From NCBI RefSeq assembly GCF_964204645.1, contig NC_134031.1:17419307-17483306 (forward strand): a stretch of DNA of 64,000 nucleotides. Reading direction: 5' to 3'. The position numbers were made by a program, and so were the translations under genes. Each line of letters opens with the position of its first letter. Within the stretch, counting starts at the first letter, position 1. The notes below the pieces were generated by a model. The model saw only the letters and a list, made by a program, of their open reading frames with translations. It was not told the DNA's origin and ran no database searches. This stretch comes from Tubulanus polymorphus. Its lineage: Eukaryota; Nemertea; Palaeonemertea; Tubulaniformes; Tubulanidae. This document shows positions 5,140 to 62,887 of the stretch, one piece after another.

Positions 5140-5147
5140 GCGACGAA

Positions 5148-19412: not shown

Positions 19413-19529
19413 CTGAAATGACGTTATCTACTAATTTACACTATCAAAACATTTACTACATCAGAATGTATTGATGAATCATATCTTGGCAAGGCAGATT
19501 ATACGATTGAAATTCAAATAATAACCTCC

Positions 19530-22590: not shown

Positions 22591-24542
22591 TTACTTATCA
22601 ACGAGATTAGGGTTTTCGAATTCAGTTACTGTAAATGATCCGAAATTTCGAGGTTTGTGTCCGATTTTGTTACGAAAAATAACGGCCATTCTCCCGAAGG
22701 TTCGTTCGCCGAGTAACGCAGCATCCAGACAGCGTAGCGTGTGAAATATCTCGGAATAGTCAGATACGATATCGTAAGCATTTGACATGACTGCTATGAG
22801 AAAGTTTAACAGCAATATTTCGATGATTATTATAAACGCCGTGTAGAGCAAGATGATTACATGCGGAAATTTTGAATCATATGGTTCGATTCCGTTGATA
22901 TTCAGCATTATGAGAAGTGCGCTGAAGAATCCTCTGGCGGTTGTTTGGAAACCAGTTTCTTTGGCGTAGGAGTCGGTTTCGCTGTGAATTGCAGCCTTCA
23001 GAGCTAAAACGAATGAAGTGAAAATCACCATGGCCGTCACCATGAAACTCGCCATTTCGACTAACATGCGCTGGTAGCCGATAACGAACACCCCGATTTT
23101 GGGTATGAATTGAAACACGCTCATTGCGCAAAATGCGCTGGAGGTCGTCGCGATGGCTAAACTGATGTAAAACAAAGATGCCGTATCGTAGGTTTGCTTG
23201 ATTCTACCGTCCGAAATCAATAAGGCGATCATCAAAGTTATGATAATTGAAACACTTCTTATAATGCAAGTGATCGTGTAAAAATATTGCGACACGACCG
23301 TCTTCGAAGATCTTTTCGGCATATTTAACGGGTAGATCGCTGCATTGACGATCAAATACGTGATGATGATAACCAACTCACTAGTACACAATACGATCAG
23401 GACCATCATGATCGCGTACGTAGGTCTTGCTAATTTGTCTGTTTTACTGGCATTCACTAAAAATGGTACTTCAACTAGCGACACCGCGTACCAAAACAGA
23501 CAAGCAACGACTGCCTGGAAGATTATCACCGGTGCAAAGTAAGGCTGGTATCGTTTCATTTTACGATGGATCCATTTTTTGATAACCGGTTCTTTGTACA
23601 GTTCTTCGAAATTTGCCAATCGGTCATCGGTCAGTTTAGTTAAAAACCGTAACGGTGATTTCCACGCTCGTGAATTATCAGCACTGACTTCGTACTCGTG
23701 CAGACGATAAGTGCTCTCTTGCATCGGACCGTAATGGCCGCTTATTACGCGATAAGCGTCTTTAATTTGAAGAATCGCCTTCATCAGTTTGAACACACAT
23801 AATTTGGCCGCTAGTTCTAATGGACGATAGCCGTGCACGTTTTCTTGCTTGAGGAGAGGAATTAATGCATTGATTGGCAATGTATTTTCGAGAAAGTAAA
23901 GTATGCTAAGAGCAATCTCCTCTGAATCAGGGTTGAGTTGTGAATGGTGACAAAGTACGTGTAAAATATTGTCACGACCGCGCGCACTTTGAACAAGAAA
24001 ATCAAATCCTTGTAAATGAAAATAAGTCAAAACGCGAAGACTGCCGCAAGTAGCGGCTAACATGATTGGATATCTGCATGCTTCTCGAAGCTGTATGGCA
24101 TTTTTGCTTTCTGTCGAATCAACTTGTGTATCATCAAATATGAAGAAAATTGTTTTGAAATATGTCAATATCTGGTCGTCATCCAGTGAATTAAGAATGG
24201 ACTTGACAGCCTCTTCGTCGTCGGTTGTGATCGCCTCGAAATATGTGCGAGCTTTGTCTAAATTCAATCCCGGTTGGTGAAGTCGGTAAGCCGAGTTTGT
24301 AGCTTCTATAATATCAGACCGATGTGAACTTTCATCGACCTGTATTGTAGTATCTGTATCCATTTTATCTGAAAAAAACAACGTATTATATATAAACCAG
24401 TAAATATAGCGAAAACTCTGTGAGCTGAATGGTGTTTATATTTCAGCAAAAAGGTCTCACCACTTATTTGTTCACAATTCAATCGTTTCAGCGAAATATC
24501 TTCAACCGTCGGCTCAAATTCCACATCCGATGAAGTCTTCAT
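22591..24542 (-). CDS. TRP-like cation channel with ankyrin repeats (copy 2)
   Basis: Two exons join in frame to 619 residues: 24542-24461 (start ATG, donor GTGAGA) and 24368-22591 (acceptor TTTTTTCAG). The second exon holds the whole channel: ankyrin-type helices followed by six hydrophobic segments, a pore-loop-like GFFSALLIMLNINGIEP, and the S6 signature LLLNFLIAVMSNAYD. It is closely related to copy 1 along its length; the main difference is a longer S1-S2 loop (containing VNASKTDKLARP). The first exon adds an acidic 27-residue leader beginning MKTSSDVEFEP. Having the ankyrin and membrane regions in one exon is unusual for TRP genes and suggests an ancestral retrocopy that was then tandemly duplicated (inference). 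It lies divergent to XRN1, with about 850 bp between the start codons. TRP superfamily membership is firm; the subfamily (V or A type) is not resolved. Confidence 0.87.
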
Positions 24543-25389: not shown

Positions 25390-28300
25390 ATGGGTGTACC
25401 GAAGTTTTATCGATGGATGAGTGAGCGTTACCCGTGTCTTAGCGAGGTCGTCAAAGAACACCAGGTATGTGCCACAACAATTACAAAGTGAAAGTATTTC
25501 AGAAAAATGACAAATAAAATCGGCCCGATCGATGTCGATAATAAAAATTTTTTTCTTTGGGGAATGTTTCCCCTGCCATTGGACCTGGAATGACCTGGAT
25601 GGATAAAACCTGATAGTGTTCACGAAATATGTTCTGCACTTGATTCTCTTTTTACAGTTACCAGAATTCGACAACCTATATCTGGATATGAACGGTATTG
25701 TTCACATATGCTCTCATCCCGAAGATGACAACCCGCATTTTCGAATCACTGAAGAGAAAATATTTGAAGATATATTTCACTATATCGAGGTAATATATGT
25801 CGTAGTAGCTGCAAAATTGATGGAAATTGAGAACTTTATTGACGTCTGGAAAATGTTGGTCCATTATGTCCCTGCCCTTTGGTTTTTGCCATATATGCCC
25901 CAAAACCTTTCTTCGGTCATCCTTATTACCGAGATGATGTATTTTACCGAGATCAACCGAGATCAACCGAGATGAAATTAAATATAACATATTTATTTAT
26001 TCCATATCGATTTTAACCATTGAAATCATATCATATCAGTAATAAATGCCTGCTGGGTTCATATTTTACATATTTTGTCGGATATTTTTGGAAAAATAAC
26101 TTTTAACTTTACCGAGATGAGATCGTCGATCAATCAAATTCAATGAAATTTTATTGCTAACCGAGTTTACGTTTTTGAAGTCAAAATTTTTTTAAATAAA
26201 AAAATATGTAAAATATGACTCAAGAAGGTATTTATTATTGATATAACATGATTTCAAGTGTTAAAATCGATAAGGAATAAATAAATATGTTATATTTAAT
26301 TTCATCTCGGTTGATCTCGGTTCATCTCGGTAAAATACATCATCTCGGTAATAAGGATGACCCCCTTTCTTTTCCTTAAGTTTAGTAGTTCAGCAGTGAT
26401 TCCATACCTCGGCCATTTTGAGCATAATCCAGGTTAGTTACTTAATCGTTGGTGGTAAGCTTTTTATAATCAGATGGGCTAATATACCAACATATATGTG
26501 GTTTATGAAAATATCCGATCGTGTAACTAAACCACAGACAGGTTACTGACTAAATCCAGGCGAGCTTGATGGAGTGGCAATCACTTTCACTCATAACTGG
26601 GCTAAATACATGTATTTTTGATAAGGGCGACATTTACGATAGCGAAATGAATGATTGTTTTCTTTCAGGTTCTGTTCCGAATGATCAAGCCGCAAAAGGT
26701 TTTCTTCATGGCTATAGATGGCGTTGCTCCACGAGCGAAAATGAACCAACAAAGAGGCCGACGTTTCAGGTAAAGCTGATGATGAATTAGCATTTGTTTT
26801 CTTAATTAATTGATATAATTTTTAGCTTATTTCTTAAATCGACTTGTTAAAATAATTTCTGCGTGGATTTTTAGATCAGCGAAGGAAGCCGACGATTTGA
26901 TCAGAAAAGCTCTTCAAAAGGGCGAAGTTCTGCCGACATCGGAGAGATTTGATTCGAATTGTATCACTCCAGGTATTTCATTCATTTTTGTACCCTATCA
27001 AGGATTGGAGCAGTTCATTTGAAATGTGATAAATCCTAAAAGGATTTTAACTCAGTTTATGAGCAAAACCGCAGTCGATGATATAACAGTATATTCTGAC
27101 AATACATTCATTTTCCTTTCTATGAAGTACTGAGAATAGTATCAGTCTACCAGTCATCCAGTGAATTTTCTCGGTTGGATTTTTTTAAATTTTGCCGATT
27201 TTGCAGAAATTTCATGTGCAAACAATGTAAATATTGATCCTCTATGTCATGTATTTTTGTATAGGTACGCCGTTCATGGTGCGATTGCAGGAACAATTGA
27301 AATACTTCGTCGTCAAAAAAGTCTCGACCGATCCATTGTGGCAGGGTCCGCGTATTTTCCTTTCCGGTCATCAGGTACGAATTATTTCAGGCGGAATTTG
27401 ATTGAGCTTTTCCGATGCCGGTGAACCTTGCGTCCCGATTCACAAAAGTTTAATGCGGTTTATCAGGGAGAGAGCGAGAAGATTGTCTGACACGAAAAAC
27501 TAATCCTAGTTTCATTTTACGCGAATGTATTTCAAAATATGAACGGTTTTCAATCGTTTGATATGTATTTTATTACAGACACCAGGCGAGGGTGAACACA
27601 AAATCATGGACTTCATCAGATACGAGAAATCTCAGCCGAATTATGATCCAAATACTCGTCACTGTCTATACGGTCTAGACGCCGATCTTGTAAGTTGTCT
27701 TCGTTTATAATGAATGGCTGAATGAATGAATTTTTTTTTCCATTTCAAAATTACATGATGTAATATAGAAATTTCTAAGGTTTCATGAAAAAATTTTTTA
27801 AAGAATTTTTTTATTTCAAATACTATTTATATCAAACGATTGTTGTATGAAAATCACCAGGAATAACCTAAAAATTCCCGTCTTTCCAGATCATGCTCGG
27901 TTTGACGAGTCACGAACCGCATTTTTCGCTGTTACGCGAAGAGGTTCGATTCGGCGGCAAAGAGAGTAAAAACAAACGATCAACTTGCCCGGAAGAGACG
28001 ACGTTTCATCTGTTGCATTTATCGCTGTTTCGCGAATATCTAGATTTTGAATTCGGTCGATTAAAGGTAAAAACTTCACAAATGTTAATTGACCAGTTTC
28101 GAACCAATTCCTTTATTTTGAATATTGCTGAAAGGGATGTTGTAATTTTAATCTTCAGAGGTCATATTCAGTTTGATGTTGTGTACGCCCTGGTTGAGTG
28201 ACCTATTTTTATCTCGATCTCAAACTAGCGCAATATTTGAAATACAGAAAATAACGCTGAGATATATATTGCAAATGCTCCATCAGGCCTTGAGAGATCT

Positions 28301-31300
28301 TGAAAATTGAATGATCAGATCAATCTTGAACTATTTAGGTACTTAAATCTCAAATATAATTAAAAAAACAATACCTCACCAAAACCTATGATAAAATCTT
28401 TTTGAACCAATTCCTTTAATTATCCGTGTAGATGGAAGTCCTTACCAAGAACTCGACGCCATAGAACCACCCTCTTCAACTAATCTATGTTATTCAAGTA
28501 CCCGACATGTGGCAAAATTACCCGACACCCTCCGTAACGCAACTAGCATCTGCGCCACATTGCGCCACACATGTCCAAAAATAGTGTTTTTTGTTTTTCA
28601 AATTGTCATCTTTTGAATATTTCGACTACCAGTAATCAATTTTGTCATAGGTTCAAAAACCTGCGATGGAAAAGTTTTGAATACGGAGAAAGGATTAAGG
28701 CGATTAAAATGGCTTTCAACTGCATGAGCAGTATTACCAGTATGAAAAAAATATATTCAAAAACACCAGATGGCTCGTATATTATACGTTTAATCTCGTG
28801 TCAACATTTGCGCTTGGTATTTTTTTTTGTAACAATGTATTCGGCATTTATTTGAAGATTAAATCACCTATTGCGAACGAACTGGTGCAAAAATTTCAAA
28901 TAAAAAATAACTGGTTAACTTTTTTCGTGGTTCTCTGGTTTCCATTATGAGAGCCTTATTTTCAAACTGTCTCTGCCTTTCTCTGCAGGTCTTTCAGCTA
29001 CTTAGCTTCGTTAATAGTGGGTCGATCTTGATGAAACTTGGGTACAATGTTAGTATGGGGATTTGGTTGTGCAGTGCAAAGAATGGGCTCACTGCGCCGC
29101 GTAGGCAGAATTAGGCACTATTGTTTTTCAGCGACATGACCTTGAAGATAACCTGGTAACTGAGGAACGGGGTCAAAATTCAAGAAGTTGTCATGACAAA
29201 AATTAGCTCTTGGCCCTAGATACAACATACCGTGTCCAAAACGCAATGGGAACAAATGCATAGGAATTTCTGAGTTGCCTCAGTGAGTGACGGCAGATTC
29301 GAGTCTGAGCCGGTTGTCGCCTATAGCTTGTTTTTTTTGCATTCGTTTTAGAATAAACTGCCATTCGAATACAATATCGAAAATATAGTCGACGATTGGG
29401 TTTTGATGGGATTCATAGTCGGCAACGATTTCATTCCGCACGCTCCCGATATGCACATCAAAAACGATGCTCTGCCGATGATCTGGCAAACGTACGCGTC
29501 CGTATTACCGACGTTAGACGGCTATTTGAACGAAGGCGGCTCTTTGAATTTGCGACGATTTGAAAAGTTCCTCACCGTTCTGAGCGATGTGAGTACCGGC
29601 TGCTTAAAAAAAATCGACAGATTGTTTTTCGTATCGTTACGAACTGCATATTTTCAGCTGTCGTTGCGTTAAATACATGAATTTTTAATGATTTCCAGTT
29701 CGATGTTGATCAGTTCAATGAGCGTTACGCCGATTTAAAATGGTTCGCCGGCAAAACCGGCAATAAAAAAGGGGTAAGTTCACCTTGCCGATGGGGATTT
29801 ATCTATTTTTTAATGAATTCCCTGTACAACGAGCTATCAAATTCCCACCAGCTGGTGGGCCTGCTAAATATGTTGCTTACATGGCTGGAAATTGGTTCAT
29901 TTTGTATCACTGCTATCATTTCAATCTTTCACATGAAAATGAAAAAAGATTGGGGAGACCAACTCTCCTAGATCAACTTAGTTTTGATTTTTGGATTCTT
30001 ATTTTAGCCATGAATTTACATTTTCCATACAATTACACATACATATATATCTATATTGTAGGCCAAGGGGAAAAAAGGGAAAACGAAATCATTCGCGGCA
30101 AACAAAGGTAGATTTGCCGCGTTAGACATCAGAGAAGAATACTCGGGTATACAGGATGAAGGTAAATATCTGTGAAAGGGGTTTCATAACAAATCAGGAA
30201 AAATCAGGGAATCTAGGATTTCGAATTCCGTGCAGGGAAAAAATCACTGCCATGTAGTGAAAAGCACATGTTTAAGCGCAGAAGTTGTCAATTTTGGAAA
30301 TCATTTATTAAGAAGTTGTTTTCAACGACAATTATTTCCCCATGGTTCTTATAGTTCACAAAAACCATGAAACTTAATTTACTGCTGGGGAAATCAGGGA
30401 ATTCTGACTCTTTTCTTGAATTTTAATTTTTGCGATCTTGTTCTTGTGTTGATGTGTGGCAAAAGAAACTAACTGAGAAGAAAAGCCTCGAACTGGGGAT
30501 ATCTTAATCGGGGGATTTTCAGTCAAGGTTCAGAGAACTATTGGGGAATTTCGGATTCTCGGATCCGTAAGAACCCCGTTTCCCGTAGTGATAACCGAAA
30601 TTGTTTTCATCATCAGACGTTTTGTACGACGACGATGACGAAGATTTCGTCGTCGATAAAATCGTTACGGTCGAAGAAGAAAAAGACGCGAAGGAAATGT
30701 TTCAGATGGAATTTCGCCAGCACAAACGTAACTATTACATGGAGAAACTCGAATATCCCGAAGTCACTCCGTAAGTGAAATGAGCAACACCTAGAATAAT
30801 ATCATTCATTTGCGCATATTTTAGACAAAGAAAAAACTACGAATTTATGCATTGATTTTACAGAGAAGTTTTGCAAGAACAAGCTCACTGCTATGTTCTC
30901 GGTATTCAGTGGATATTGAACTACTACTACAACGGCGTTGTATCTTGGGGCTGGTAAGTGGTTTTCGAGTTCAATATTTTCTCCTGATGCAAGGCAATTA
31001 CCGTGAAATTGTGAGTCGGCGTAATTCCGAATGTTGTGTGTCGGCTGCCGTGCTGAAGTGAATTATTAATGAATCATTTCCAATCTTTTTCGCCCTCTTC
31101 GAATAATTCATTTTGAAAAATAATATTTGTTTCATTTTGAATAATGATTCGAATATCGTTTCAGTAGATCTGCTGGTTGACCATTGATGAAACATTTTGT
31201 GACGATTATGTTGAAATCGTGCAATAACAATGAAAAAGAGAGTCCGAAAAAGTTTCCTTGAGCTTTATGTATTCCTGAAGATGATTTCTAGGATATAGTT

Positions 31301-34300
31301 GAAAGGTTGAAACATAATGATAGTTCAAGGAAACATTTCGGACTCTATTTCTAGCTCTGCTCTGTAGGGTTGGGTTAGCTGATATTAATCTATAAAAGAG
31401 CAGTTTAGTTCACATTTAACTTTGCACTTTTTTTTTTACTTAAAATAACCTAATTTGTGCTCAATGCCCTCTGAATTCATGTTTAACCATTGGTATCATC
31501 ATCACTATTTTCATCATAACAGTGATCATTCAAATATGATCAAGATATAGCACAAATTCTTACCTTTAAACAGTGCAGTAATGAGGTATCCGACAAGGTA
31601 ACACAACTACCAATATGAGCGTTAAACAGTATCAGCAGAGTTTCCCACTGAGATATGTCTCTTTAAGAGACATGCGTTATGCTGCATACTGATGTATGTA
31701 CTGTACACATGAGGCAGGTCGTATATAATTTAACAAGGATAACTAAAACTTTGGGTCTTAAACAGAATAGTATTAACGAGGTTCAACTTAACCATTATTT
31801 TTACTCATTTCCGGTCAGAATTTCTTAGAAATCATTTAGAATCTAAATGATTTTTCAGGTATTATCCGCACCATTACGCTCCATTTCTCAGCGACGTCAG
31901 AAATTTCAGCCAAATGAGTTTCGAGTTCGAGTACGGAAAACCGTTCTTACCATTTCAACAATTGATGGCTGTACTGCCAGCTGCCAGTAAAAACCTATTA
32001 CCCGAATGTTATCAGGTAAACGATTGATGCTAGAAATTAGATTCGTTGAAAAAGTGATATTTCATGTATTCATCATTGTTCTTTTCAGACATTGATGACC
32101 GATGAAATATCGCCAGTTATCGACTTCTATCCGGAAGCGTTCGACCAAGATTTGAACGGTAAACAACAAGCTTGGGAAGCGGTCGTTCTAATTCCGTTCA
32201 TCGACGAGGTAAGATGGATGATCGCTTTGATTTTTTTCACAAAAAGGATAAGATAAGTAAATACTTGAGACAAATTGAATTTGTGAAGATATTTGATAGA
32301 TTTTAGATAGCCCTGAACTCAAATTTCGACCCTTCCTGAAAATCTCTTAAAAAGCCCTGAGCTTGTTTGTGTGGTTCTAACTTCTCGAGTACGGTTCTAT
32401 AAAGAGCTTAGACTGAATTTCCCAATTATCAACTTAAATTTACAAAAAATTCTGTAAACTCGACCATTGATCACACAACTATATCTGCACTTTGATTTCT
32501 GATTTCAAAATAAAACCCCCTGTTTCGCTCCCGGCAGGTGTGGTGAGTTTGTAAAGGACTCCAAATCGAAATATCAAACGAAGTCTACAAATCAAATAAC
32601 AGGCCAATCCCTATTTTAAGATTAAAAAAGACCAATGTTACATATTTCTAATGACGATCTTCTTAGAATCGTTTGTTGGAAGCGATGGCGAGTGTGGAAC
32701 ATCGTTTAACGCCCGCCGAGCGTACACGCAATACGAACGGTTCTTGCATCATGTATCGTTTCACCGAACAGTCGCTTGGAACGTATAAATCGGCGAACCC
32801 TGCATTTCCTGATATACTCTTCAATCATGCGAAGTAAGTTTATAGATCCATTGCACCGTTCTAGTTAATCAGGGGCCGATCCAAGGGGAGGGTGTGCATC
32901 ACCTTAAAATGTCCCTAAAATTTTACGGGAAAATGAAAAATATTAAACTGATACCTTAAATTTAAATTCATAAGCTTCTATGTATACCCAATGAATAGAT
33001 GTTTTCCTGACAAGCTTTCTATTGGGGTATACTTGTATGATATGCCCTATTTTGAGGGTGGACCCCTTCCTTAATCAGACCCTAGATCCGCCTCTGTCAA
33101 TGCGTATGTGGAGTAACCCTGGAATTTTGTGTGGTGGATACATTCAAGTCGAGACTAGACAAGCATCATACAAACATTATGTATGGCCATTGATGAATTA
33201 TTAACATCTTCCCTGTCTCAACAAGCACACAATGGATTGATAAAAACGGTGTTGTAAACGTCAACCAGTGCAAAACCGCAATAGTGTTAATCTACTTGAT
33301 TTACTGTTAGTGTTGCTGTTACTGTTGATATCGAGACATTTTTAAATCCTGAATTGTAGAGAAAGTGAGATCGGTGCCGAGCTTTACCGACTGAAACCGA
33401 AAGAAATCAAGAAGGGACTCTGCGAAGGTGTTAGGATGGATGTCTACTATCCCGGATTTCCGACTATGAAACATATCAAACATTCTGTGAGTACTGACAG
33501 GGCCGCCTTCGGTTATCTGAATTAGTCGACTATAGTCGAACTAAACGAAACCAAATGTCTGTTAGTCGGAACTATATGCCGGAAATCGTTCGAAAATCAA
33601 GCGCATTCGGTTATTAGTTCCGACCACTAGTCGACTAGATACGAAAACCGAATTTGGCCCTGACTGACAACACCCGATCCAGTCGACAAATGGTGATGAT
33701 TGGAACCATTTTGAATTCAATTTCAGGCATACCTCGAGAAATGTAACGTGAAAGTATTTCAAATGAATAGTCGTAGCGAGAATATGATGTTGAAAATTGA
33801 AGACGGCAACAAAGATATGGTATTATTTAGTTAATCGCTGAAATACGCGAACAGGTCGCTAGTTCTTGATGTTCACGAGGGTTACCATTAAATTCTTCTT
33901 GTTTTGAATAGGATATTGATGAAGCAGCCCGCGAGCTGGTCGGCCGTTCGATGTTCGTTTCATGGCCTCACCTGATCGAAGCGAAAGTCGTGGCCATCTC
34001 GGACGGAACTATTAGGTAAGAAGTAATCGGTCTCGTTCATTTCAAGCTTAAATAAATAATTGTCGTAAAACGTTGAGAAATTTTAATTTCATTTATTTAT
34101 TTTTCATTCATTTATCCGATTCAGGTACGATATCGTGGAATGTTCCTCGAAAGGCGGTAAAACGCGCGGTCGAACGAAGTGCGTCGAGATGAATAAAACC
34201 TGTTTGTCGCAAGAGGAGAGCAAACTCTGGTACAGCGAAGTCGGTCGTATCAGAGACACGTAAGCGTTATTTACAGATCGCAATACAAGAAACGAAATCG

Positions 34301-37300
34301 TTCGGGGGGTCGCGTCGTCATCTGAAACGGAATTTCGTTTTTTTGTAGTTATTACGAAAGAAAGGGAATCGTGATCGGTCAGACGAATATCGTCGTTTAC
34401 GCGCGGCCTATGATGGGTCGTAAATACGTAAGCAGTTCGCAGGGCAGCGTCACGTTGGAGAAACAGTGGTCGACGTATGCTCTACCATTCGTCTTTCAAA
34501 CCTCGGTTAAGGTAAGGGATAGTCATTTGCGTGTTCGGGGCAGACATGTTCAGAGACGGATACAGGATTTTCGGGAAGGGAGCGCTGTTTTCTTGTTAGA
34601 AAGTTGATAAGATTGTGACATCCTTGCGCAGGGTGACCACTTACCTGCAAGTCGGGTAATTTTCTTTTCTTAAAAGAAAGTCAGGAAATTTTGTAAGAAA
34701 AAAAAAGGCTAAAATTAGGCTAAACAAAAATGATACCTTGTTTCTCCGCAGCGGCCGGGTCATTTTTGTAAAATATGATAAAATTTATAAACTGTTCATT
34801 TCTATAGCGGCCGGGTCTGTTACGGTAAAATTGATCACGATTTTAAAAAAAGTAATGTATAGGGTAGATAGGCGGCCGGCCGGGTCACCATTTAAGCTCA
34901 GCAGAGCGGAGAAACAAGGAATCAATTTTTTTAGCCTTAGGGTTAGTCAGGTAGAATTCGTTGCGATTCCTAGATCGCGCATAAAAATCAACATTTTCCA
35001 TCTATATTCTATGTATTTGACTGTTAATTGATTGTCAGAGAAAATTCAGGGAAAAAGTGGCCACCCTGATGCACATTAATTAAGGCCTGGGTGTTAAAAA
35101 CGAGAAATGAGGTCATCCAGTCAGGAAGGTCCGATGACAGTTCAAAATAAGTGCCATATGGCATCGCTGCAACAGTCTGTTAGTATACTGCTAACGTTTA
35201 CGTTCTGCACACAAAACGATATCAGAAAAATATCATCAGCAAAAAATAGGGACACCCCTTGAAACTGCCCCTGAGGTGAAATATGTCAGAGAATGTTGGT
35301 TTGAATTTGATGCTATTAAAAATGCACATCTGAAAATTCAAGCTCGCAGAAATGAGAATATTTTCCTAAGTTTTGCACTTGTATTATGAATGTTTTACAA
35401 ACCTTACACGAAGCCCGATATTTATTTAATTTATCGTTTAAAGGATATAGCCTCGCACGATCCATCGTTTGCCCAGTTTAAGACGATCGACGAGCTTTTC
35501 CCGCTGAACAGCGATGTCTTTATGTTGGGTTACCCGCACTACGGATGTATGGGTAAAGTACTCGAACACGACACAAGTAACAGTGGCCGATTACGCATTG
35601 AACTTACCGTCAAAATGGAACCGAACATGATGGACGTTATCTCGAAGCAGCAGGTATTGCCAAATAATTTACAGCCCAAAATAATATCAAAACCTAGGGA
35701 TTATGCTCGCTTTATAGTCAATAATTTATTGTATCCTTGGGTTAAATTGAAAGTTAAATCGATCTATGAAATAATCAATGATTAACCCCTTTCAATGCTG
35801 ACTTACTGATACCCAAAAGAGATCATCTTTCCCAGAGATGTCCTTATCAATTCAAGAACATTGTATTGATTGTTCTGCCACATGCTAGTGACTCATGAGG
35901 AAAACCCATTACCATGTTTATCATCAAAATTGAACAGTGCACCATAATTTCATCCGTATCAGTTGTTAATATGTTATCCCAAATCCGAGAACAAATCGAG
36001 TTTTTGTGCTCATAAGTAAAATGTACTCGGTTGATCCAACTGGAACCATGGTCCTTGATATTTAGGATATCATGAATTATTATTTATCATAATCTTATTT
36101 ATAGGCCTATGTGAAAAAAAATATAAAGTTATTAAAACCAGCCCTTGTAGACAACCTCTGGAATTTTATGATTCTCATGCATATCGAATATCTACCTGAA
36201 CCTTGGAAGATGGAGTTTTGAGCGGTCAGTAATTCGCAGTTGATATTTTCTTTCAGAAATTATCATTGTCGTATATGCCGGGATATGTGGTCGCGAAACG
36301 GTTAGGGATCAGCGGTCACTTGCTGTCTCGTATCACGGGTACCGTGTTCATCGCCAAGGGCTCGAAAGACGAACCGCGAGACGGAAAGATAAACATCGGA
36401 TTGAACCTGAAATTCAACAAACGCAATGAAGAGGTAAAAACTGATGATTTTGAGTGCAAAAGTCCAAAGAGGCTTCTTAACACATAAAGCAAAGTCTAAA
36501 ATTCCACGTTGGAATCAAAATATTTTTCAATATGTTACACGTTTTATCATCATCGATGTCTATGTATAGATGCCGTACCTATTCGAAATTATTTTTTGGT
36601 GATTCATGCTGAAGATGCCTAGCAATCTTAAGATTCGTTTTAGTTTTAGTACTGAAATTAGCAATTCACATAGATTGTACTTCCTGTGGGAGTTATGAAT
36701 TCTGAAATCTGTCGACTATTAAAACTTATGAAATCTGTTATAGTCGGCGTTTTACTATGGATGTTTTGTAGTAATGTAAATAGGTGTCATATGGTTAATG
36801 TAAACTCCTGGTAAGTTGAATATATATCATTGCAGGTACCTGGGTATACAAAGAAAACTGACGACGGCTGGCAATATTCAAATAAAGCACTGCAAGAAAT
36901 CGGTTTATACATGGAAAGGTACATACACAAGACATATTAGATTAATTGCTTAAGGTTTCAATTATTTCTGGATTTCATCTTCCCAGGGTTTCAATAAATT
37001 GCGTAAAATTCATGATTTTCACTTGTAAATATTCCGCCTTCCTCAAAGCTGCCAGGGTTGTGATACCAGGCAAACGCAATGACAGTGAGGACGTATATGT
37101 CCAAAACACTCGGGTGATGGATGTTGACATGTATTCGAAATTCAGCTAATGTTACAAGACAATCATCCGAAATTCGTCTTGTTGAACCACTTTATCGAAC
37201 AGAGATCTATGGTTCATGATCTTTTTCTGTCTCGTTTGTGGAATAATTTGCCAATACACATCCGTAACCTACCATCAGTGGAGTCCCTTAAACATGCTTT

Positions 37301-40300
37301 AAAAAAATTTTTATGCAAAGAGTTTTTAATGATTAGTAGTACCTGGTAACTGTTTAAGAAGAGGTACATATTTTGTGAAGAACTTCGAGATTGTTTTAAT
37401 GTAAATTGCTTTTGAATAATAAATTATTATTATTATTATCATTATGGATGTACATAGACGTCCAAAATCCTATGAGAACCTGAATCCTGCAAGGGTTTAA
37501 GACTGTTAAATGAATTAGAAATTTAAAACATTAAGATATTCGGTGGATTTCTATACGCAGGTTTCCAGAACTGTGGGATTACCTCGTTAGTAACACGACT
37601 GAAGGCGATGTCTATTATGAAACTGATGTATACCCGGACGATACGTCCGAGCGTATCGGCGCGTTGGCTAAATTCTTGAAAGAGTTGCCGTGTCAGTCGG
37701 CGTCGCGTATGAAAATAGGATCCGATATACTCGACGAACCCGTCATCGAACTCGTCGAAAAAGAAGTCGATAAAGTCTCGGTAAGTCGTGTTACTTTTTG
37801 AATCCGCAGCCTGGATGCACCCCTCAGACATTTGACGTTTGATACACCATTGAAAAAACATTATAGGCCTATCCATGTTCAGATGATAATATGTAGAAAT
37901 TCCCACAATGACGAAAAAAGTGATGATCCGAAAATGTTTCCTTTATCAATTACCTTATTCAACGGCGAATGAACTACTAGCTCAAGGAAACTTTTTTTGG
38001 GCTGTATATTATTTTTTCCTCATTATTGTGGGATTTTCTATGTATCGATCACCATTCTTTAGACTTGTCCTCACCGAAAAGTTTGGATTGAAAATGTTAC
38101 AAATTGCCTACAAATACCAGACATTGAGACATTTTATCACCAAATTCAATTATTCATACAACAATGGTGAATGTCTGTGGGCGGACAGCTGGCGTAACTT
38201 TCATGATTGCTGTTAGCTGAATCGAAATTAGCTTCGAATTTCTTTTGACACAATACAGATAGAAAACAAGAAACGGAAACGTTGCGTTAAAGTTCAAGTG
38301 AGGCCTCACCTGCTCTACAAGGTATTGAAAATTGATATAATCATGCAACACGAAAAAAGACGAACAACTTCATCAAACTTCATCAAAATTTATGTTTCTT
38401 CCTTTTCTAGCCAATTACGCATCAGCTGAATTTGATACCCGACACAACTGCTCACTACCTTCTGTTCGATAGAGTGATCAACTGTCGTCTGGGTTATTCG
38501 ACCCCGTTAGGTTTGAGAGGTACAGTCACTGGTATCTATTTAGGTATGTACATTCGAAGAAGATCACTGCAGCAAATTTCAAGTTAAAAACTCCAAAAGA
38601 TGATATAGCTCCAATGTGTTTAAGCCCTATCTCATGTTATCGTATTTTTGTTTTAGGTGAAAAAGAGTTGGACACGATTTATGACGTCGTGTTTGACGAG
38701 CCGTTTCAAGGCGGAATTGCGTTGCGTTGTAAAGCCGGCTGTGGCTACAAACTGCCGCCGACCGCGCTGATCAACCTGTCGCACGGCGATCGCAAAGAGG
38801 AAGCGCGCAAACGCGGCGTACCGATCGACGTCATCGTGTCGGAATGGTCGACGCAAATCACGAATAAACCTCACTCGTCGTGCCGTAGCAACAACGATCA
38901 ACAATCGCCTCACTCGTCGTGGCGTAGCAACAGCGATCAACAATCGCAGAACAACGGTCGAAATTATAGTTATAACTATAATCAACAGCAGCGGCAGCAG
39001 CAGTCCGGCGCGAACTCGATGAGATCGGCGAAGAATTCACCTCGTAGCGATAACGGCAAGAAGTACAACGCTCCAGACGGTTTTCAGGTAATCACTCATC
39101 AGTATTGTTGACTAGGATTACGGTATCAATTTCTTCATGGTCAACTTCAGCTAATTAACAATCTATAAGCCGCATTCACACTTTCGTTAGTTAGTGCGTC
39201 CCAATTTGGCCCGTACCTGAAATGGAACAATTTTGAACGGACGGAATAATGCCATGCATTCACACACGTTTGGATACAGCTGCTATCACTGGTCCTACGA
39301 GGCGCAACACTGATTAGGCAATCAAAGCTAAGATGAGTTTCTATTCACACGCAGAGTGAGGTTCTAAAATTCAGAACAAACCTCGATCGGTCTTTTTAGT
39401 TAGTCTGAGAACAGACTTTTTGCTAGAATGAGAGTTTGATCTTTTCTAAATCAGAACGGACTAAATCGGATTTAGAATGTTCTAAATAATGTAGTGTGAA
39501 CGCGGTTATGATTATTACTGCCTGCCCATAGATAATTAACTCATGCCTGCCCATAGATAATTAACTCATTTTACGGTTACTTTTATATTCATCATCCTCT
39601 ACGTTCTAATACTAAAATCTACATAAAATCTGAAGTAAGCATGGTTCGTCTAACATTTTGCACGATTCTAATATGAGGTTTTGGTTTTTAACGCATGTTC
39701 TTTTTAGAAATCCGGTGCTTATCAGTCAAATGGTGCTTATCAACACCAGAAACCAGTTAGAATAGCTCAGAGAGCTTCGGTTAGTTTTTTCTGTAGTAAA
39801 TCGACCGTGTAACTCGTCCGTCCGATGAAGTCTGTCATCATTTTGAAAATGGGGAAATTCATCGAAGCGTTTTCGTTATTTTCAGGCGCGAAGCGGAGGG
39901 GATGAATTCGCGAACATGTGGAAAGAACTGAAAAGTGGCGGCAATGGTGCCACGGGCGGCAATCCGCAACCGGAGCAGCCGCGCGTTCTCGATTCGCGGC
40001 CGAAAATGCAAGAAAAACTGAGCATTATTAAACAGCCGGCCGAGAAACCGTTAGAAAACAGTGACAAACCACAGTCATCGTCAAACATAGACGACTTCAT
40101 GGCAATGTTTCAATCGCTGTCACTGGTGGAAAATAAACAGCAGCAACCGAAACAGGTAGAAAAAATCAGAAAATAGTCCAGCAGACGCTACTAAATCAGG
40201 AAAATCACCGCAATCAGGATTGTTTTTAACCCAATTAGGCAGTTACCAGATTAGAAACCGAGTTTAGTAGTCTTAAGGTTAAAAGTTTGCTTACAAAACC

Positions 40301-53601: not shown

Positions 53602-54872
53602 TCAAGTCAACATATAAAGAGAATCCGTCCAAACTATTTTGTAGCTTTGCAAGTCACCAACCCTCAGGTAAATAAAATTCAAGTACATGTACAGTGTACC
53701 CTATAATTTTTGCTCGTATCGGTTTCGAAAGTGTATGCTGTAACGGTATATGTATCTTGATTTTCTAGATCCATTCAGCATTGTCTGATGTACAGGCACA
53801 GATTTTGGCGAAATGTCCTGAAATCGAAGAAGCCATGGTCGATATTAAGACTTTGCATGTTACAGTTATGGTGCTTCATGTGGAGAAGTGTGAAGAGAGC
53901 TTCAACAGGCGAGGAAAATCCTTACAAATATTTAGATCATAATATTTGGAGCTTGAATCATGTCGAGAATGAATTTTCCTTTTTTTCCAGGTTAAAAATG
54001 GCAATGGACAATTGTCAATCGAGAATAGACCAGGAGCTTGGAGGCCAATCTTTGGAAATTACATTCAAAGGTCTTGGTCATTTCAAACATAATGTGCTGT
54101 TCGCATCTCCCGTAGAAAATGAAAACCTTCTTCGATTAAGGAAAACAGCAGGTACGTGCGTAACCAGAACTAGGCCTTCTCTTTAAATCATGTGTTCTGC
54201 TGTCCTGATAAGCTTCAGTTCAACAGTTATTGGTCTGAACTGTATTCTATACTTACCAGAACTGGGCCTGCTCTTTAAATCAAATATTTTATTGTCCTGA
54301 TAAGCTTCAGTTCAACCAGTTTCGGGTTTAAGCTGTGTTCAATGCCAGCAGTTAGATTCAATTGGAAGTAAGCAAGATTTTTATTCCAAGACACAACCAA
54401 TCCTGGCCTCTCGTACTGTATGATTTTTTCAGAATGTGTTAATGCAGAATTCAAAGCACAAAATATTTCTAGTACAGATAGAGATGGTAAAGTTTTCAGA
54501 CCACATTTAACAATTCTTAAACTGTCCGATTTGTCGCCAAAGTTGAGAAAAAAAGGTGAGGATTTCAGAATGATTTGTTTTTGATTTCATCGATGCCATA
54601 TGAACCGGGTTTACTGGTTTTGCTGTATCTAAAAAAAAAATTTCATCTGCTTCACTTCTTCCTTCCATTGATCAATAATCATTGTGTTTATGTTACCAGG
54701 TATAAAAAGAATTGAACCCGAATTGTACGCGGAGTTTGTCGGTGTTGAATTCGGTGAAGACGTTTTCAAAAGTATCCAGCTGTGTGAAATGAAGAGAGAT
54801 GAAGAGACCGGTTACTACAGAATCGCTTACGAAGTTACTTTGAATAAAACTAATGAGAAATCTAAACGCTGA
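53602..54872 (+). CDS. AKAP7-type 2H phosphoesterase, copy 2 (N-terminus unresolved)
   Basis: Exons 53602-53667, 53769-53908, 53991-54151, 54433-54555 and 54700-54872 join in frame to 220 residues covering the entire 2H domain; both HxT motifs (LHVTVMV, PHLTILKLS) and the GIKRIEPELYAEF block are intact. Exon lengths 140, 161 and 123 are identical to copy 1, and the C-terminus is five residues longer (NEKSKR). The 5' coding exon of copy 1 is destroyed here, so translation would have to start in another exon or at an internal ATG. The intron after 53908 begins GC (AACAG then GCGAGG) where copy 1 has GT, so it would be a GC-AG intron or a splice defect. An intact catalytic domain suggests recent function, but whether a full mRNA is made is uncertain. 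Confidence 0.65.
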
Positions 54873-56361: not shown

Positions 56362-59016
56362 TCAAGCCGCTGCGGGTTCAGAGTCTTTACCGTCGTTGGC
56401 GGTTGCACTACCGGCCGGTCCAGCATGGCGCTTTCCTTTCTGGGCAAAACTCAGAGCCGAGCCCAGGTGACGTTTCACCGTTGTATCGCTTTGTTTCTCG
56501 TCGTTTTCTGAACGTTTTCCCGATCGCCAAGCCATCAGTGAACCGAGGTTTCGCTTTTCGTCTTCATTGTCTCGTTTACTACTTCGCCACGACATCGCCG
56601 CGCCCATATGCCGCTTGCCGCTACGCCAAGCCGAAGCTGATCCTATGTGTCTTTTCTCAAAATCGCCTTCATCGTCGCGCTTACCGGTTCTCCACGCCAC
56701 GAATGAACCCATGTGTCGTTTATACTCTTCGCCCGATTCTCTTTTTCCACCTCTCCATCTCATCATCGATCCCATGTGTCGTTTAATCTCGTCTCCTAGC
56801 TCCTCATTATCTCCGACAGCGTCGAATCTAGACGCTATTTGTCCAACGTCATGGTCATACAACTCCCGCTTCCCAACAAATCTCATGGTTGCTCCGATAT
56901 GTCGTTTATCATCAATTATATCATCGAACTCTCTTTTCCCCGCGAAATTTCTTGCAGAACCTAAATTTCTTTTTCCAGCGAAATTTCTGGCTGAACCTAA
57001 ATTTCTTTTGCCGTCTTCAAATTCCCTTTTTCCAGCGAAATTTCTTGCTGAACCTAAATTTCTTTTGTCGTCTTCAAATTCCCTTTTTCCAGCGAAATTT
57101 CTTGCTGAACCTAAATTTCTTTTTTCATCACCGAATTCTCTTTTTCCAGCAAAATTTCTGGCTGAACCTAAATTTCTTTTGTCGTCTTCAAATTCCCTTT
57201 TTCCAGCGAAATTTCTTGCTGAACCTAAATTTCTTTTTTCATCACCGAATTCTCTTTTTCCAGCAAAATTTCTGGCTGAACCTAAATTTCTTTTTTCGTC
57301 TTCAAATTCTCTTTTTCCAGCGAAATTTCTGGCTGAACCTAAATTTCTTTTTTCGTCTTCAAATTCCCTTTTGCCAGCGAAATTTCTTGCTGAACCTAAA
57401 TTTCTTTTTTCGTCTTCAAATTCCCTTTTTCCAGCGAAATTTCTTGCTGAACCTAAATTTCTTTTGTCGTCTCCGAATTCCCTTTTTCCAGCGAAATTTC
57501 TCGCTGAACCTAAATTTCTTTTTTCGTCTTCGAATTCTCTTTTTCCAGCGAAATTTCTCGCTGAACCTAAATTTCTTTTTTCGTCTTCGAATTCTCTTTT
57601 TCCAGCGAAATTTCTCGCTGAACCTAAATTTCTTTTTTCGTCTTCGAATTCTCTTTTTCCAGCGAAATTTCTCGCTGAACCTAAATTTCTTTTTTCGTCT
57701 TCGAATTCTCTTTTTCCAGCGAAATTTCTTGCTGATCCTAAATTTCTTTTGCCCGCAAAATTACGTGTTGAACCGAGATGGCGCTTCTCATTTTCGATAT
57801 CTTCCGATTCCCTTTTTCCCGCAAAATTTCGAGCAGAACCGATGTTTCTTTTTTCATTTTCCGCCGAGTCTCGTTTTCCAGTAAATCTCATAGTTGCCCC
57901 CAGGTGTCGCTTATCCATTTCGTCAGCTCCGTTCCTTTTACCGGCCGCAAAGTTTCGCACGGAGCCTAGATGCCGTTTCTCTTCCGCAGAGTCTCGTTTT
58001 CCTGCAAAGTTCCTCGCCGAACCAAGATGTCGTTTTTCACCCTCGATATCGTCAGATTCTCGCTTTCCAGCAGCAAAATTACGCGCGGAACCTAAATTCC
58101 GTTTTTCATTTTCCGCAGAGTCTCGTTTCCCGCTAAATCTCATAGTTGCCCCTAGGTGTCGCTTATCCATTTCGTCAGCTTCCTCCCTTTTACCGGCCGC
58201 GAAGTTTCGCACGGATCCTAAATGCCGTTTTTCTTCGTCGATATCAAATTCTCGCTTCCCGGCAAAATTCCTTGCAGCGCCTAAATTTCTTTTTTCGGCG
58301 TCGTCATCGAATTCGCGCTTTCCGACGAATCTCATCGTTGCGCCTAAATGCCGCTTCACACTTTCCATATCTTCCCTTTTGCCGGCGAAGTTTCTCGCTG
58401 CGCCTAAGTTTCGTTTTGCCTCTTGTTCCTCTTCGTCTCTCTTACCTCTGTGGTGGAAACCCCAGTTTTTCGCTGAGCCGATGTTTCTTTTATCCTCCAG
58501 GTAATCGCGTTTTCCCCATCGGAATGCCGCTCCCAGATGTCGTTTATCTGCGGGATCGTTGAATAGATTATCGTATCTCTTGCCCCACATATAAGCAGAT
58601 GCTAAATGACGCTTGGACGTGTCGCGTTTACGTCTGCTGGGAAACCGCGCCGATCTCGACAGCCATTGCGGGTAATTCGACTGGCCCCATTCTTCCGTTT
58701 CGTAATCATCGTCGACGTCTTCGTCGCGTCTGTCGTGATCAGGCGACTGGGCATTTTCGACCAAACGACTGAAATACGGTTCGTACTTGTACGAATTCTC
58801 GCGAGACCTGTCGGAGGTTTTCCACCAAGGTCGTCCGTCGTCGGCTCTCGTACGAACCAACGAGCTCAGGAATCTACGATCGCGGTAGTTCAAGTCATCG
58901 TAGAACGGAGGCGAATAGCCGACACCCGCGCTCTCTCCTCTGAATGGATAATATCTCATCGCTGGTTTCGGAATCCAGTTGTGTCGGGCCAGTGACGCGA
59001 TGTGCCGCTTTGAAAT
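56362..59016 (-). CDS. NPLP1-like amidated neuropeptide precursor (terminal exon, 5' part missing)
   Basis: The exon encodes 884 residues in phase 0 after an acceptor (TGTATTTTCAG) at 59017; the signal-peptide exon was not found, so the CDS is partial. Product: a secreted prohormone cut at KR sites. I count about 35 peptides followed by GKR (amidation) separated by acidic spacers ending in KR. Early ones include HLASAYMW and HLGAAFRW; the middle has HLGATMRF[VST] and [NH][LI]G[SA][ASTV]RNFA(A) types; 15 consecutive copies are NLGSARNFA; late ones are Trp-rich (HMGSMMRWRG, HIGSASAWRS). HMGAAMSWRSS lacks the amidating Gly. The first segment HIASLARHNWIPKP resembles arthropod NPLP1 peptides ([HN]-[IVL]-[GA]-[ST]-x-[AM]-R), and the shared [HN][LIM][GA][SA] start links all of them, hence the family call (inference). 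The final segment is a non-amidated Ala/Gly-rich tail. Confidence 0.85.
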   Translation of the reverse strand: MSKRHIASLARHNWIPKPAMRYYPFRGESAGVGYSPPFYDDLNYRDRRFLSSLVRTRADDGRPWWKTSDRSRENSYKYEPYFSRLVENAQSPDHDRRDEDVDDDYETEEWGQSNYPQWLSRSARFPSRRKRDTSKRHLASAYMWGKRYDNLFNDPADKRHLGAAFRWGKRDYLEDKRNIGSAKNWGFHHRGKRDEEEQEAKRNLGAARNFAGKREDMESVKRHLGATMRFVGKREFDDDAEKRNLGAARNFAGKREFDIDEEKRHLGSVRNFAAGKREEADEMDKRHLGATMRFSGKRDSAENEKRNLGSARNFAAGKRESDDIEGEKRHLGSARNFAGKRDSAEEKRHLGSVRNFAAGKRNGADEMDKRHLGATMRFTGKRDSAENEKRNIGSARNFAGKRESEDIENEKRHLGSTRNFAGKRNLGSARNFAGKREFEDEKRNLGSARNFAGKREFEDEKRNLGSARNFAGKREFEDEKRNLGSARNFAGKREFEDEKRNLGSARNFAGKREFGDDKRNLGSARNFAGKREFEDEKRNLGSARNFAGKREFEDEKRNLGSARNFAGKREFEDEKRNLGSARNFAGKREFGDEKRNLGSARNFAGKREFEDDKRNLGSARNFAGKREFGDEKRNLGSARNFAGKREFEDDKRNLGSARNFAGKREFEDGKRNLGSARNFAGKRNLGSARNFAGKREFDDIIDDKRHIGATMRFVGKRELYDHDVGQIASRFDAVGDNEELGDEIKRHMGSMMRWRGGKRESGEEYKRHMGSFVAWRTGKRDDEGDFEKRHIGSASAWRSGKRHMGAAMSWRSSKRDNEDEKRNLGSLMAWRSGKRSENDEKQSDTTVKRHLGSALSFAQKGKRHAGPAGSATANDGKDSEPAAA
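56941..57750 (-). repeat. 57-bp coding minisatellite inside the neuropeptide exon
   Basis: Thirteen 57-bp units plus two 36-bp units without the spacer encode 15 identical NLGSARNFAGKR segments. The spacer is EFEDEKR or a one- or two-residue variant (EFGDD, EFGDE, EFEDD, EFEDG). Units near 57500-57720 are almost identical at the DNA level, synonymous sites included, so expansion or homogenisation is recent. The 57-bp period keeps the reverse strand open too, producing a long meaningless antisense frame. Confidence 0.95.
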
Positions 59017-62000
59017 CTGAAAATACACAGAAACATTGTTTTAAGTAAATACAATAATCTATCATCTATTTCACTTATCTCGTCAAAATCTGAATAACGT
59101 TGACTTTGAATAGTTGTAATGTGTCTTGAGATATTTGTCCATTGCATATTCATCCTCGCATCAACGTTCTTGATGTTTACATAGAAAAATATTTTCCCCA
59201 TCGCGTTCACAGAATCGAGGCATTTTTGATATGGCATTCACATTATATATTAAATTCTTTCGCACATCGTATTATATTAATCAGTTACTGGTCGAATGTT
59301 TATAACACGTCGCTAAGTGATATCTATGTAGTATCTTCAACGAATTCGTGATAACGGGTGGAAATTCCTAAATATTACTTGGCGAGCATGAATTATGCAT
59401 GTTGACAAAAGAACTCATTTGAATTGTTAATCCTCTAACTAAAACATCAGACAAAACTGGGTGACGGCCAATTTTTCTTCAAATCTCAGCTTCGACACGC
59501 AGTCCATCAGTAAACGCTGTCGTTGGTAAATGTAAGAATAACGACCAGATTGTTTTCACAACCTTTTCATGTCGGCTCGTTTTCCTTTTTACGTTCGCGT
59601 GTGTTGTACCTGATAATTTGCCAATACGACTGCTCGGACGCGGAGTTTTCGACAATGTTTACCCGGAGATCTCATTTCGCGCGGACAGAACACATTCGGT
59701 AAATAAGACATCAAGCGACTTTGTCTACAAGTCTTAAGCCAACGCATCGGGTTTCAATATCATTAAAACTCCCCCGTGGCTGAGTAAGACGTATGGAATG
59801 ATGTTTTCTAGACTGCGTTCGTCTTATGGTTCCGATCCTTAGCTAAACTTACCAAAATTCAATCGTTCTACGTAGGCCTTACTTTGAAATTTTGCCGAAT
59901 TCCTTTTTTTTTGGGTATTTTTCAATACACCCTTAGGACTTCTGCTGTTGTCCTTAACGGAATATCACCCGACAACAGCTAACTAGGAGATGCATGATGG
60001 CATATAAATGAAGTAACATCTCTCACCGGCCTGGGGTTAAGTACAATGGGCAGGATTGTCGCGAAGGAACATGTACGAATCTTTCCCTAATTACTTATTT
60101 AGTGATATTGCGTGGGTCTGTTTCGTTTTTATTTTCTTCCATCGGAATCAATAATAGACGTAATAACGGAAAGGTTCGCCGAAAGGAGGCAATGTGTGCT
60201 TGCATCCACTTCCTGTCATATTAGCCGTCATTCAGGTAGAAATTACGAGGGATTTTTAGTCGCTGACATTTATACTGTTAAGAATTATGAACGCAAGTCA
60301 AGCCGGAACTTCCACTTGAATAAAGGGCGTTCGCACTCCCTCCGCCTTGCTCGTGATACCTATGGTAAACCACTAAAATCCATTTCTTAAAAAGTCAATT
60401 TCTTAGAAAGCCTTCCATTTGATTCTCGACTAAGGTATCACGTCAACCTGGTCCCAACGCTTCGAGTAGGACAAGGTTACTGCCCTCCGTCAGCTGATGG
60501 TTCACGCGAACCAGAAACGAAATTTCCAATTCTTTACTTCGATTTAAACAAAAGTTTATGTAAATTCAACCGACCATTCAATTTAACATTTTCTAATTCG
60601 AATTTCAAGATTAAACGATGGACTCGATGGAGAGTTTTAGAGTCCATGATTAAACCCACTGTCTCGTTCCCGGCAGGTAGGAAGGGACACGATAGATAAA
60701 CAGACAGATTAAGAAAAGCAAGATTAATTCGAAGCAGACAACTTATCATCGTTTACGTATACACTTCACTCCCTGTTTCTTTCACGGTCGTGAAGGCGAC
60801 CAAGAGGATAAAACAACATTGCATATCCTTGTAGATTTTGTAATAGTGATTAGGCTATTTATGGACCTCACTGCGCCGAAAATAACCACAACACGCTCGA
60901 TACGGTATTACTATTATCGAACTGATCAAGCGAATATACGTCTTTATTATATAAGACGGATTACTATTGTGAGGACAAAAAAAACAATGTAAGACCTACT
61001 GAAGCACCAAATCATTAATATCCATCATTTCTACGTCACCGCGTTAAAGTCGAATGCGAATGAACAGATTCTGAACATGACCTAACTAGATTGGTATCCA
61101 CATTTCTTCGTAAACGAATAAGCTATAATCAAAAATACACGATTTCTTAATTCGCAGTGTAGCCAATTAACTGGATTGACGTGATCCTATTATTCGTAGA
61201 TTCTTATTCAACCTAAAGAAAAATTTGTATTCTGACTATCTATATACGTATGTATGGTAAATATATTGACCATAATTTCCACGTTTTCAATGTAAGGACA
61301 TTTCAACTGGACAACTCTGTTCGAATTTTACTTTATTGTTCGTACGTTCAGAAATGTGGACATTCTAACGAAAACACGACACCCCGGGCGTACGTAGCTA
61401 CAAACGTATCATTCCTCATAAATGTCGAAGGAACTAATGGTTCTTTTTATTCGCTAAGAAACAGCGGTATCATGAAGGGGTACTTCGCCGAAAATATATA
61501 TGTATTTATCAACTACAACGTCTTGTTTCAAGCGCTGTGGACGACGTACGACTATACATTTTCATTAACGTCGATGTCTTGTATGACGAAGAATAAGATT
61601 CCCGTAGGAGACGAACTTATCAAATGTCCATCTAGACACTTCACTATGTAACGAATGGCCCCACTCTGTGCGCGGCTTTGTAACCCGAAGCAGCTCTCGT
61701 GATAACTGACAACGGAGATAGCATATTAACCGATATTGACGGGCTTTGATTTGTCGCCCACAGGTCGGACGCCGTGATCTCGATATTTGTCAGCCCATCG
61801 GGCAGAAAGGCATAATTAATATCAGATGTTTTTCATCTTTGTTTCGGCCCCGCCGTTGGGAATAGGATATAGTTAATGTCTATAGAAGCCTGCGCAGTTT
61901 ATACTGTCCTTTGAGGGAAAGGGCAAATGAAAAGCAGTATTTACTTGAAACTAATAAGAAATCATGTTATACGTACCGTTTTTCCTCGTATGTCAGTAAT

Positions 62001-62887
62001 GCAGACGATTAGAATCGCCATTATCAATAGAGCTAGCGTAGTCCCCATGCTACGTATTTTAAGAAGGCGGTTCTATAGAGAAATGTTTAGTTTAAAATGC
62101 CACTTCTTACACACGTTCGGCAACAGGCGACTCACATTGTCTGCCAGAACCTGGAAAATAAGACAACGATACAATTCTTCAGTAATTATTGAAAGATGTC
62201 ATTGCACATTTTGGATACAAAAATGAATAGGGGTTGTTATCTCTAAGAATCACGTAACGCGTATGAGGGAGTTCGGGCAAAAAGTTTGTTTCAGATTGTT
62301 AGAGGGGAAATGGGTGTCTCGAAACCTCTGTTACATTTTGCTAAGTAATATCGCAAGGGTCTGATTTGTTAGATATTGTTACAAGGGAAAGGTAGTTAAA
62401 AACTTCCCCAAAAAATGTGTTACGTAAAACAGCCCTATATTATCCCTGGGTTTATTTACCCAATGACCAATATGTCGATAATATTTATAGAATACTTCTT
62501 GAATTTCAAGTTTTGAAAACACCTAAAAAGTCAACGTGGATTAAGCCTCGAGCTTTCGAACGATAGTGTCAAATTCAGATGCAGTCAAATAATTGGTGTA
62601 ATTTTTAGTTTCCGAATTATAACGGTCCAATCATCGGGTATGTTTACCAACATCGAAAAAACTAATCGGTGAAAATGTTTCGAAATCTTGTAGGTCTGCG
62701 TCACAGAGTAATCATCTTATAGATGAATGAAGCCGTAGAGGTCCACACGCGATTTGGATGCTCACTGATGTCAGACTAGCTAATCTGATCTGTCTGAATA
62801 GTTCACGGGAGCGCATCAACTTCTGCACATTCCTAGAGCTAAGTTCTATAGTGTGGTTGAAAAAATTGTCGTTCCACAGTTGCCATG
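59017..62887. other. Upstream region of the neuropeptide gene; no exon resolved
   Basis: The 5' exons of the neuropeptide precursor, including the signal peptide, should lie here or beyond the window. I found no minus-strand ATG followed by a hydrophobic leader and a phase-0 donor that I could defend. Short plus-strand frames (such as 61250-61651, 133 codons) have no recognisable features. Contains repeat family B copy 3. Confidence 0.45.
60535..60690. repeat. Interspersed repeat family B, copy 3 (diverged)
   Basis: TTACTTCGATTTAAACAAAA, GTAAATTCAACCG, GTCTCGTTCCCGGCAGGT and surrounding sequence line up with the copies at 21570 and 32440. It carries an insertion of about 35 bp containing facing GGACTC/GAGTCC motifs before the CCCGGCAGG block. 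Confidence 0.5.

Follow-up and report, generated by a model that had tools for sequence, protein, structure and literature searches.

Insect NPLP1 is a multi-peptide precursor whose products start with [NH][IV][GA][STA][LV]AR and end in DxxLPx-amide. Those of ants include HIASVARDHGLPN, NIGSLARQSTLPSN, NVGTLARDFALPT and NVAALARDSSLPY, the table entries with footnote b being taken as amidated (PMC10194420). The decapod HIGSLYRamides, known from crab and crayfish, share the motif H-I/L-GSL-L/Y-Ramide (PMC8449533; PMC5141488) and derive from long multi-copy precursors, that of the crab holding 18 units within a partial 758-aa frame (PMC8449533). Veenstra regards HIGSLYRamides as another name for NPLP peptides (PMC4888303). 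DxxLPx and SL[LY]R ends differ between insects and decapods, and the C-terminus is not strictly family-defining. The nearest lophotrochozoan candidate, by name, is HIGA, which had no known orthologue beyond Platynereis in 2013 (PMC3890597) and was later reported from nemerteans (PMC8557429); HIGA is not linked to NPLP1 in the texts compared.

The window analysed here, a stretch of 64,000 nucleotides, contains a gene that almost certainly encodes a multi-copy amidated neuropeptide precursor, whichever family it belongs to. We consider it somewhat probable, from sequence comparison, that this is a spiralian precursor gene of the NPLP1/HIGSLYRamide type that was enlarged by tandem duplication. 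The parts of the gene are listed below by window position.

61977–62048, minus strand: coding part of exon 1, candidate signal peptide MGTTLALLIMAILIVCITDIRGKT with a phase-0 donor GTACGT at 61976 (prediction)
59017–61976, minus strand: phase-0 intron of 2960 bp, GTACGT...TATTTTCAG (predicted from splice sites only)
56362–59016, minus strand: exon 2, holding all peptides of the precursor (open frame and translation)
58975–59004, minus strand: NPLP1-like N-terminal unit HIASLARHNW, not amidated (translation; motif unique in the window)
58513–58608, minus strand: the Trp-amides HLASAYMW-amide and HLGAAFRW-amide (peptide list)
58444–58485, minus strand: NIGSAKNWGFHHR-amide (peptide list)
56872–58410, minus strand: central block of 23 RNFA/RNFAA-amides and four MRF[V/S/T]-amides with acidic spacers such as EFEDE (peptide list)
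56964–57750, minus strand: NLGSARNFA-GKR-EFEDE-KR array, a 57-bp tandem repeat of 13.8 copies with 93% matches (tandem-repeat analysis)
56518–56778, minus strand: HMGSMMRWRG-, HMGSFVAWRT-, HIGSASAWRS- and NLGSLMAWRS-amides and the unamidated HMGAAMSWRSS (peptide list)
56434–56469, minus strand: HLGSALSFAQK-amide, the final unit ahead of a non-peptide tail (peptide list)

The minus-strand open frame from 59040 to 56362 runs for 892 codons without a stop, and its probability of ~1e-26 at the local base composition rules out a chance frame as the source of the precursor. The peptide-bearing exon within it (59016–56362) is intact, comprising 884 codons followed by TGA at 56364–56362, and the boundary between the acceptor CAG and the first codon ATT at 59017/59016, preceded by the intron end TATTTTCAG, was graded good. 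These limits coincide with those of the first-pass annotation (56362–59016). Two plus-strand frames of 677 and 350 aa over the peptide exon were rejected as repeat by-products without motif support; the former (677 codons, 56471–58504) lies antisense to the peptide repeats and arises from repeated codons. The gene occupies a single locus of the genome (268 Mb, 77 contigs), where the remaining matches show low identity, almost all of them crossing stop codons. A genome-wide search for paralogues found none, and a Pfam search of the precursor found no domain.

The first-pass annotation had proposed a search for the signal-peptide exon and had named the lack of a signal peptide as grounds for abandoning the precursor. 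Scanning 25 kb of the minus strand upstream of the peptide exon for an ATG, a hydrophobic stretch and a phase-0 donor returned one candidate exon only (62048–61977, MGTTLALLIMAILIVCITDIRGKT, donor GTACGT), located 2.96 kb upstream of exon 2 and with a hydrophobicity of 3.6, so that this objection falls away. Control strands totalling ~160 kb yielded seven weak candidates, none of which reached a hydrophobicity of at least 3.0 with a phase-0 donor. The predicted signal peptide has a hydrophobic core, and its phase-0 donor matches the CAG acceptor at 59017. Joining the two exons gives a predicted precursor of ~908 residues that reads ...CITDIRGKTISKRHIASLARHNW..., with the signal peptide followed by a KR site and then directly by the first peptide. 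The sole Cys of the precursor sits in the signal peptide.

Downstream of the signal peptide, 36 units start with [HN][LIM][GA][SA] directly after KR and 35 of them close in G-KR, the amidation signature, HMGAAMSWRSS-KR being the one unit without the amidation Gly. HIASLARHNW, the leading N-terminal unit, is the 37th and is not amidated. The exon accordingly contains 37 instances of the pattern KR-[HN][LIM][GA][SA], and the six frames across the remaining window contain none. The 74 matches in other loci equal twice 37 and are read as loci L001 and L002, each containing this same gene. The 35 predicted amidated peptides comprise 19 different sequences and divide, by number of units, into RNFA/RNFAA amides (23, including 15 identical copies of NLGSARNFA), MRF[VST] amides (four), W amides (two), W-R-[GTS] amides (four), and one each ending in NWGFHHR and SFAQK. 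They are separated by acidic spacers, EFEDE and variants; EFED-G-KR at ~57010–57024 formally fits an amide and was excluded as a variant of this spacer. The earlier description of an amidated multi-peptide precursor with a common start and differing C-termini thus agrees with the 35 G-KR units in an intact frame. Its count of about 35 amidated peptides also stands, while its three-way division does not separate out the MRF[VST] peptides.

Variation among the repeats was compared at the codon level. Among the 24 nine-residue units, pS was 0.58 and pN 0.13, so that codon variation is mostly silent, and Gly3, Phe8 and the amidation Gly are invariant. Position 9 varies between A, V, S and T, and the four-residue start is kept in every unit. 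Such mostly silent variation is the pattern expected from selection on the peptide, and copying may contribute. The spacers show the same degree of conservation as the peptides they separate (pS 0.55, pN 0.08), and part of the low pN may therefore stem from recent copying of units rather than from selection, or the pattern may partly reflect a demand for acidic spacers. The 57-bp array is the most recent expansion; the units on either side predate it and differ more among themselves. The copy number found here is high but has precedent, since cnidarians and molluscs have precursors with ~30 copies of one amidated peptide. To call it extreme, as was done at first, is fair; it is not unprecedented, given the 18 units in the partial crab precursor. 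The unusual trait is the combination, in one precursor, of a fixed peptide start with several C-terminal types.

The link to NPLP1 drawn earlier from HIASLARHNW held up in comparison with the published peptides. HIASLAR fits the start of the NPLP1 peptides of ants, and the H-I/L-GSL of the HIGSLYRamides is matched by the start [HN][IL]G[SA]. A search of the window for dibasic sites followed by [NHY][VIL][GA][STA][LV][AL/Y]R gave a single match, HIASLAR, the other 36 units keeping the first four positions only. The family assignment is likely, but homology to NPLP1 is based on an N-terminal motif of 4–7 residues. In comparison with insect NPLP1, the copies number ~35, most units have no Leu ahead of Ala-Arg (NLGS-ARNFA), and the ends are RNFA, MRF[VST], W and WR[GTS] rather than DxxLPx. 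Nor do the C-termini correspond to the SL[LY]R-amide of the decapods, and the host is a spiralian, not a crustacean. Published NPLP1/HIGSLYR peptides used as queries against the genome gave no match and overlooked even the peptide gene itself, indicating that such short peptides give little search power.

The possibility that the gene is the orthologue of HIGA comes close to an even chance, and it overlaps the NPLP1 reading without excluding it. HIGA is an amidated, multi-copy precursor of Platynereis (PMC3890597) that was later found in nemerteans too (PMC8557429), and its name suggests an H-I-G-A start, as in HIGATMRFV-amide of this precursor, although the two are likened by name alone. Membership of the lophotrochozoan F[V/L/I]amide/fulicin/LRNFVamide group, or of HFAamide, would place the gene by its C-termini (MRFV- and RNFA-amide) and treat the NPLP1-like N-termini as convergent. 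Receptor binding of amidated peptides is usually set by the C-terminus, LRNFV-amide is known from oysters, two peptides here end in RFV-amide like the members of that group, and RNFA resembles RNFV. An FV-amide end is carried by only 2 of the 35 peptides, however, when FV-, FL- or FI-amide would be expected on most; the majority of units have A, S or T instead of V, and this ninth position varies while the four-residue start stays constant throughout. To our knowledge, the [HN][LIM][GA][SA] start is not a feature of the FVamide/LRNFVamide group. No peptide ends in HFA-amide, the ends being NFA (HFAamide was compared by name only), and we regard this placement as unlikely. The W(X6-8)W-amide pattern of myoinhibitory peptides/allatostatin B was likewise sought, and no peptide has two Trp so spaced. 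Least probable is a secreted multi-copy peptide of non-neural use (for example in epithelial or reproductive secretion, or defence) made by the same enzymes. Dibasic-cleaved, amidated precursors do occur outside neurons, but the combination seen here of short amidated peptides, acidic spacers and an NPLP1-like motif is what neuropeptide precursors typically show. This reading is also disfavoured by the lack of strong positive charge on the peptides and by the restriction of Cys to a single residue in the signal peptide.

The spiralian nature of the host follows from its Hox cluster, whose genes on contig C6 are arranged as Post2, Lox2, Lox4, Antp, Lox5, Scr, Dfd, Hox3, pb, lab (assigned by inspection of homeodomain and flanking motifs). 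The cluster is compact (C6:5318228–5634756), with ten genes in a single orientation, and Post1 was not seen in it; on contig C5, ~20 kb separates Xlox from Cdx, which are oppositely oriented. The arrangement differs from that of Capitella, in which Xlox and Cdx are 33 kb apart and Post2 and Lox2 are separated by 11.4 kb between genes, compared with ~31 kb between the homeoboxes here. The genome also encodes an RGWamide precursor (C2:11865407–11865546, locus L068; MQKLVVALVFLGLVVLELVLPAIADGQAQSDDMDKRGWGKRGWGKR...) with units KRGWGKRGWGKR in direct succession. This form has been described in brachiopods and nemerteans; annelids too have RGWamides, whereas molluscs carry APGWamide (PMC8557429). 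The precursor therefore argues against a mollusc, and the host is probably an annelid, a nemertean or a brachiopod; a COX1 search for the taxon gave no match.

Several other genes share the window with the peptide gene. An open frame of 3296 residues (5022–14912, plus strand) is mostly low-complexity and has a MYND zinc finger close to its C-terminus. Two tandem, intron-poor channel-like genes on the minus strand (17668–19440 and 22591–24435) are strongly similar in sequence and probably stem from a TRP-like gene that was recently duplicated; only the second gave a Pfam match, a weak one to Ion_trans. They are followed by exons of the XRN1 5'-3' exoribonuclease (XRN_N, D2/D3 and SH3-like; 25607–39111, plus strand) and by an exon for an AKAP7 2'5' RNA ligase-like domain (53761–54186), which is convergent with the peptide gene.

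We propose that the signal peptide directs the 908-residue precursor to the secretory pathway, where prohormone convertases would cut at KR, a carboxypeptidase would then remove the basic residues, and a peptidylglycine amidating enzyme would convert the exposed Gly to a C-terminal amide. Exons for a proprotein convertase P-domain (PF01483) and for PHM (PF03712) are present in the genome, indicating that the processing enzymes exist. PHM-type copper monooxygenase exons occur as at least four tandem copies at C3:23389407–23429139. Processing would release ~35 short peptides of 19 sequences, with NLGSARNFA-amide dominant. Their [HN][LIM][GA][SA] start probably goes back to an NPLP1-like ancestor. 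The C-termini have diverged into the RNFA, MRF[VST], W and WR[GTS] types, and this divergence suggests that the peptides probably serve as modulators acting on one receptor or a few related ones; the first-pass annotation had likewise considered that more than one receptor may be involved.

A broader and more tentative proposal, to which we give somewhat less than even odds, is that NPLP1/HIGSLYRamide is a protostome-wide family and that a spiralian branch, represented by this gene and perhaps by HIGA, kept the N-terminal half of the peptide and replaced the C-terminal half, giving from a single precursor several amide types that may address different receptors. It would constitute an unrecognised spiralian peptide system that chiefly yields RNFA-amide; RNFA-amide, including the forms RNFamide, SARNFA and RNFAGKR, was not found in the literature searched. 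The gene records the growth of a precursor through tandem duplication, with the N-terminal half of the peptides kept and the C-terminal half diverging. If the link to NPLP1 is true, this family, usually seen as an arthropod one, would already have existed in the protostome ancestor, and a comparison of orphan receptors between spiralians and arthropods could be used to look for its receptor.
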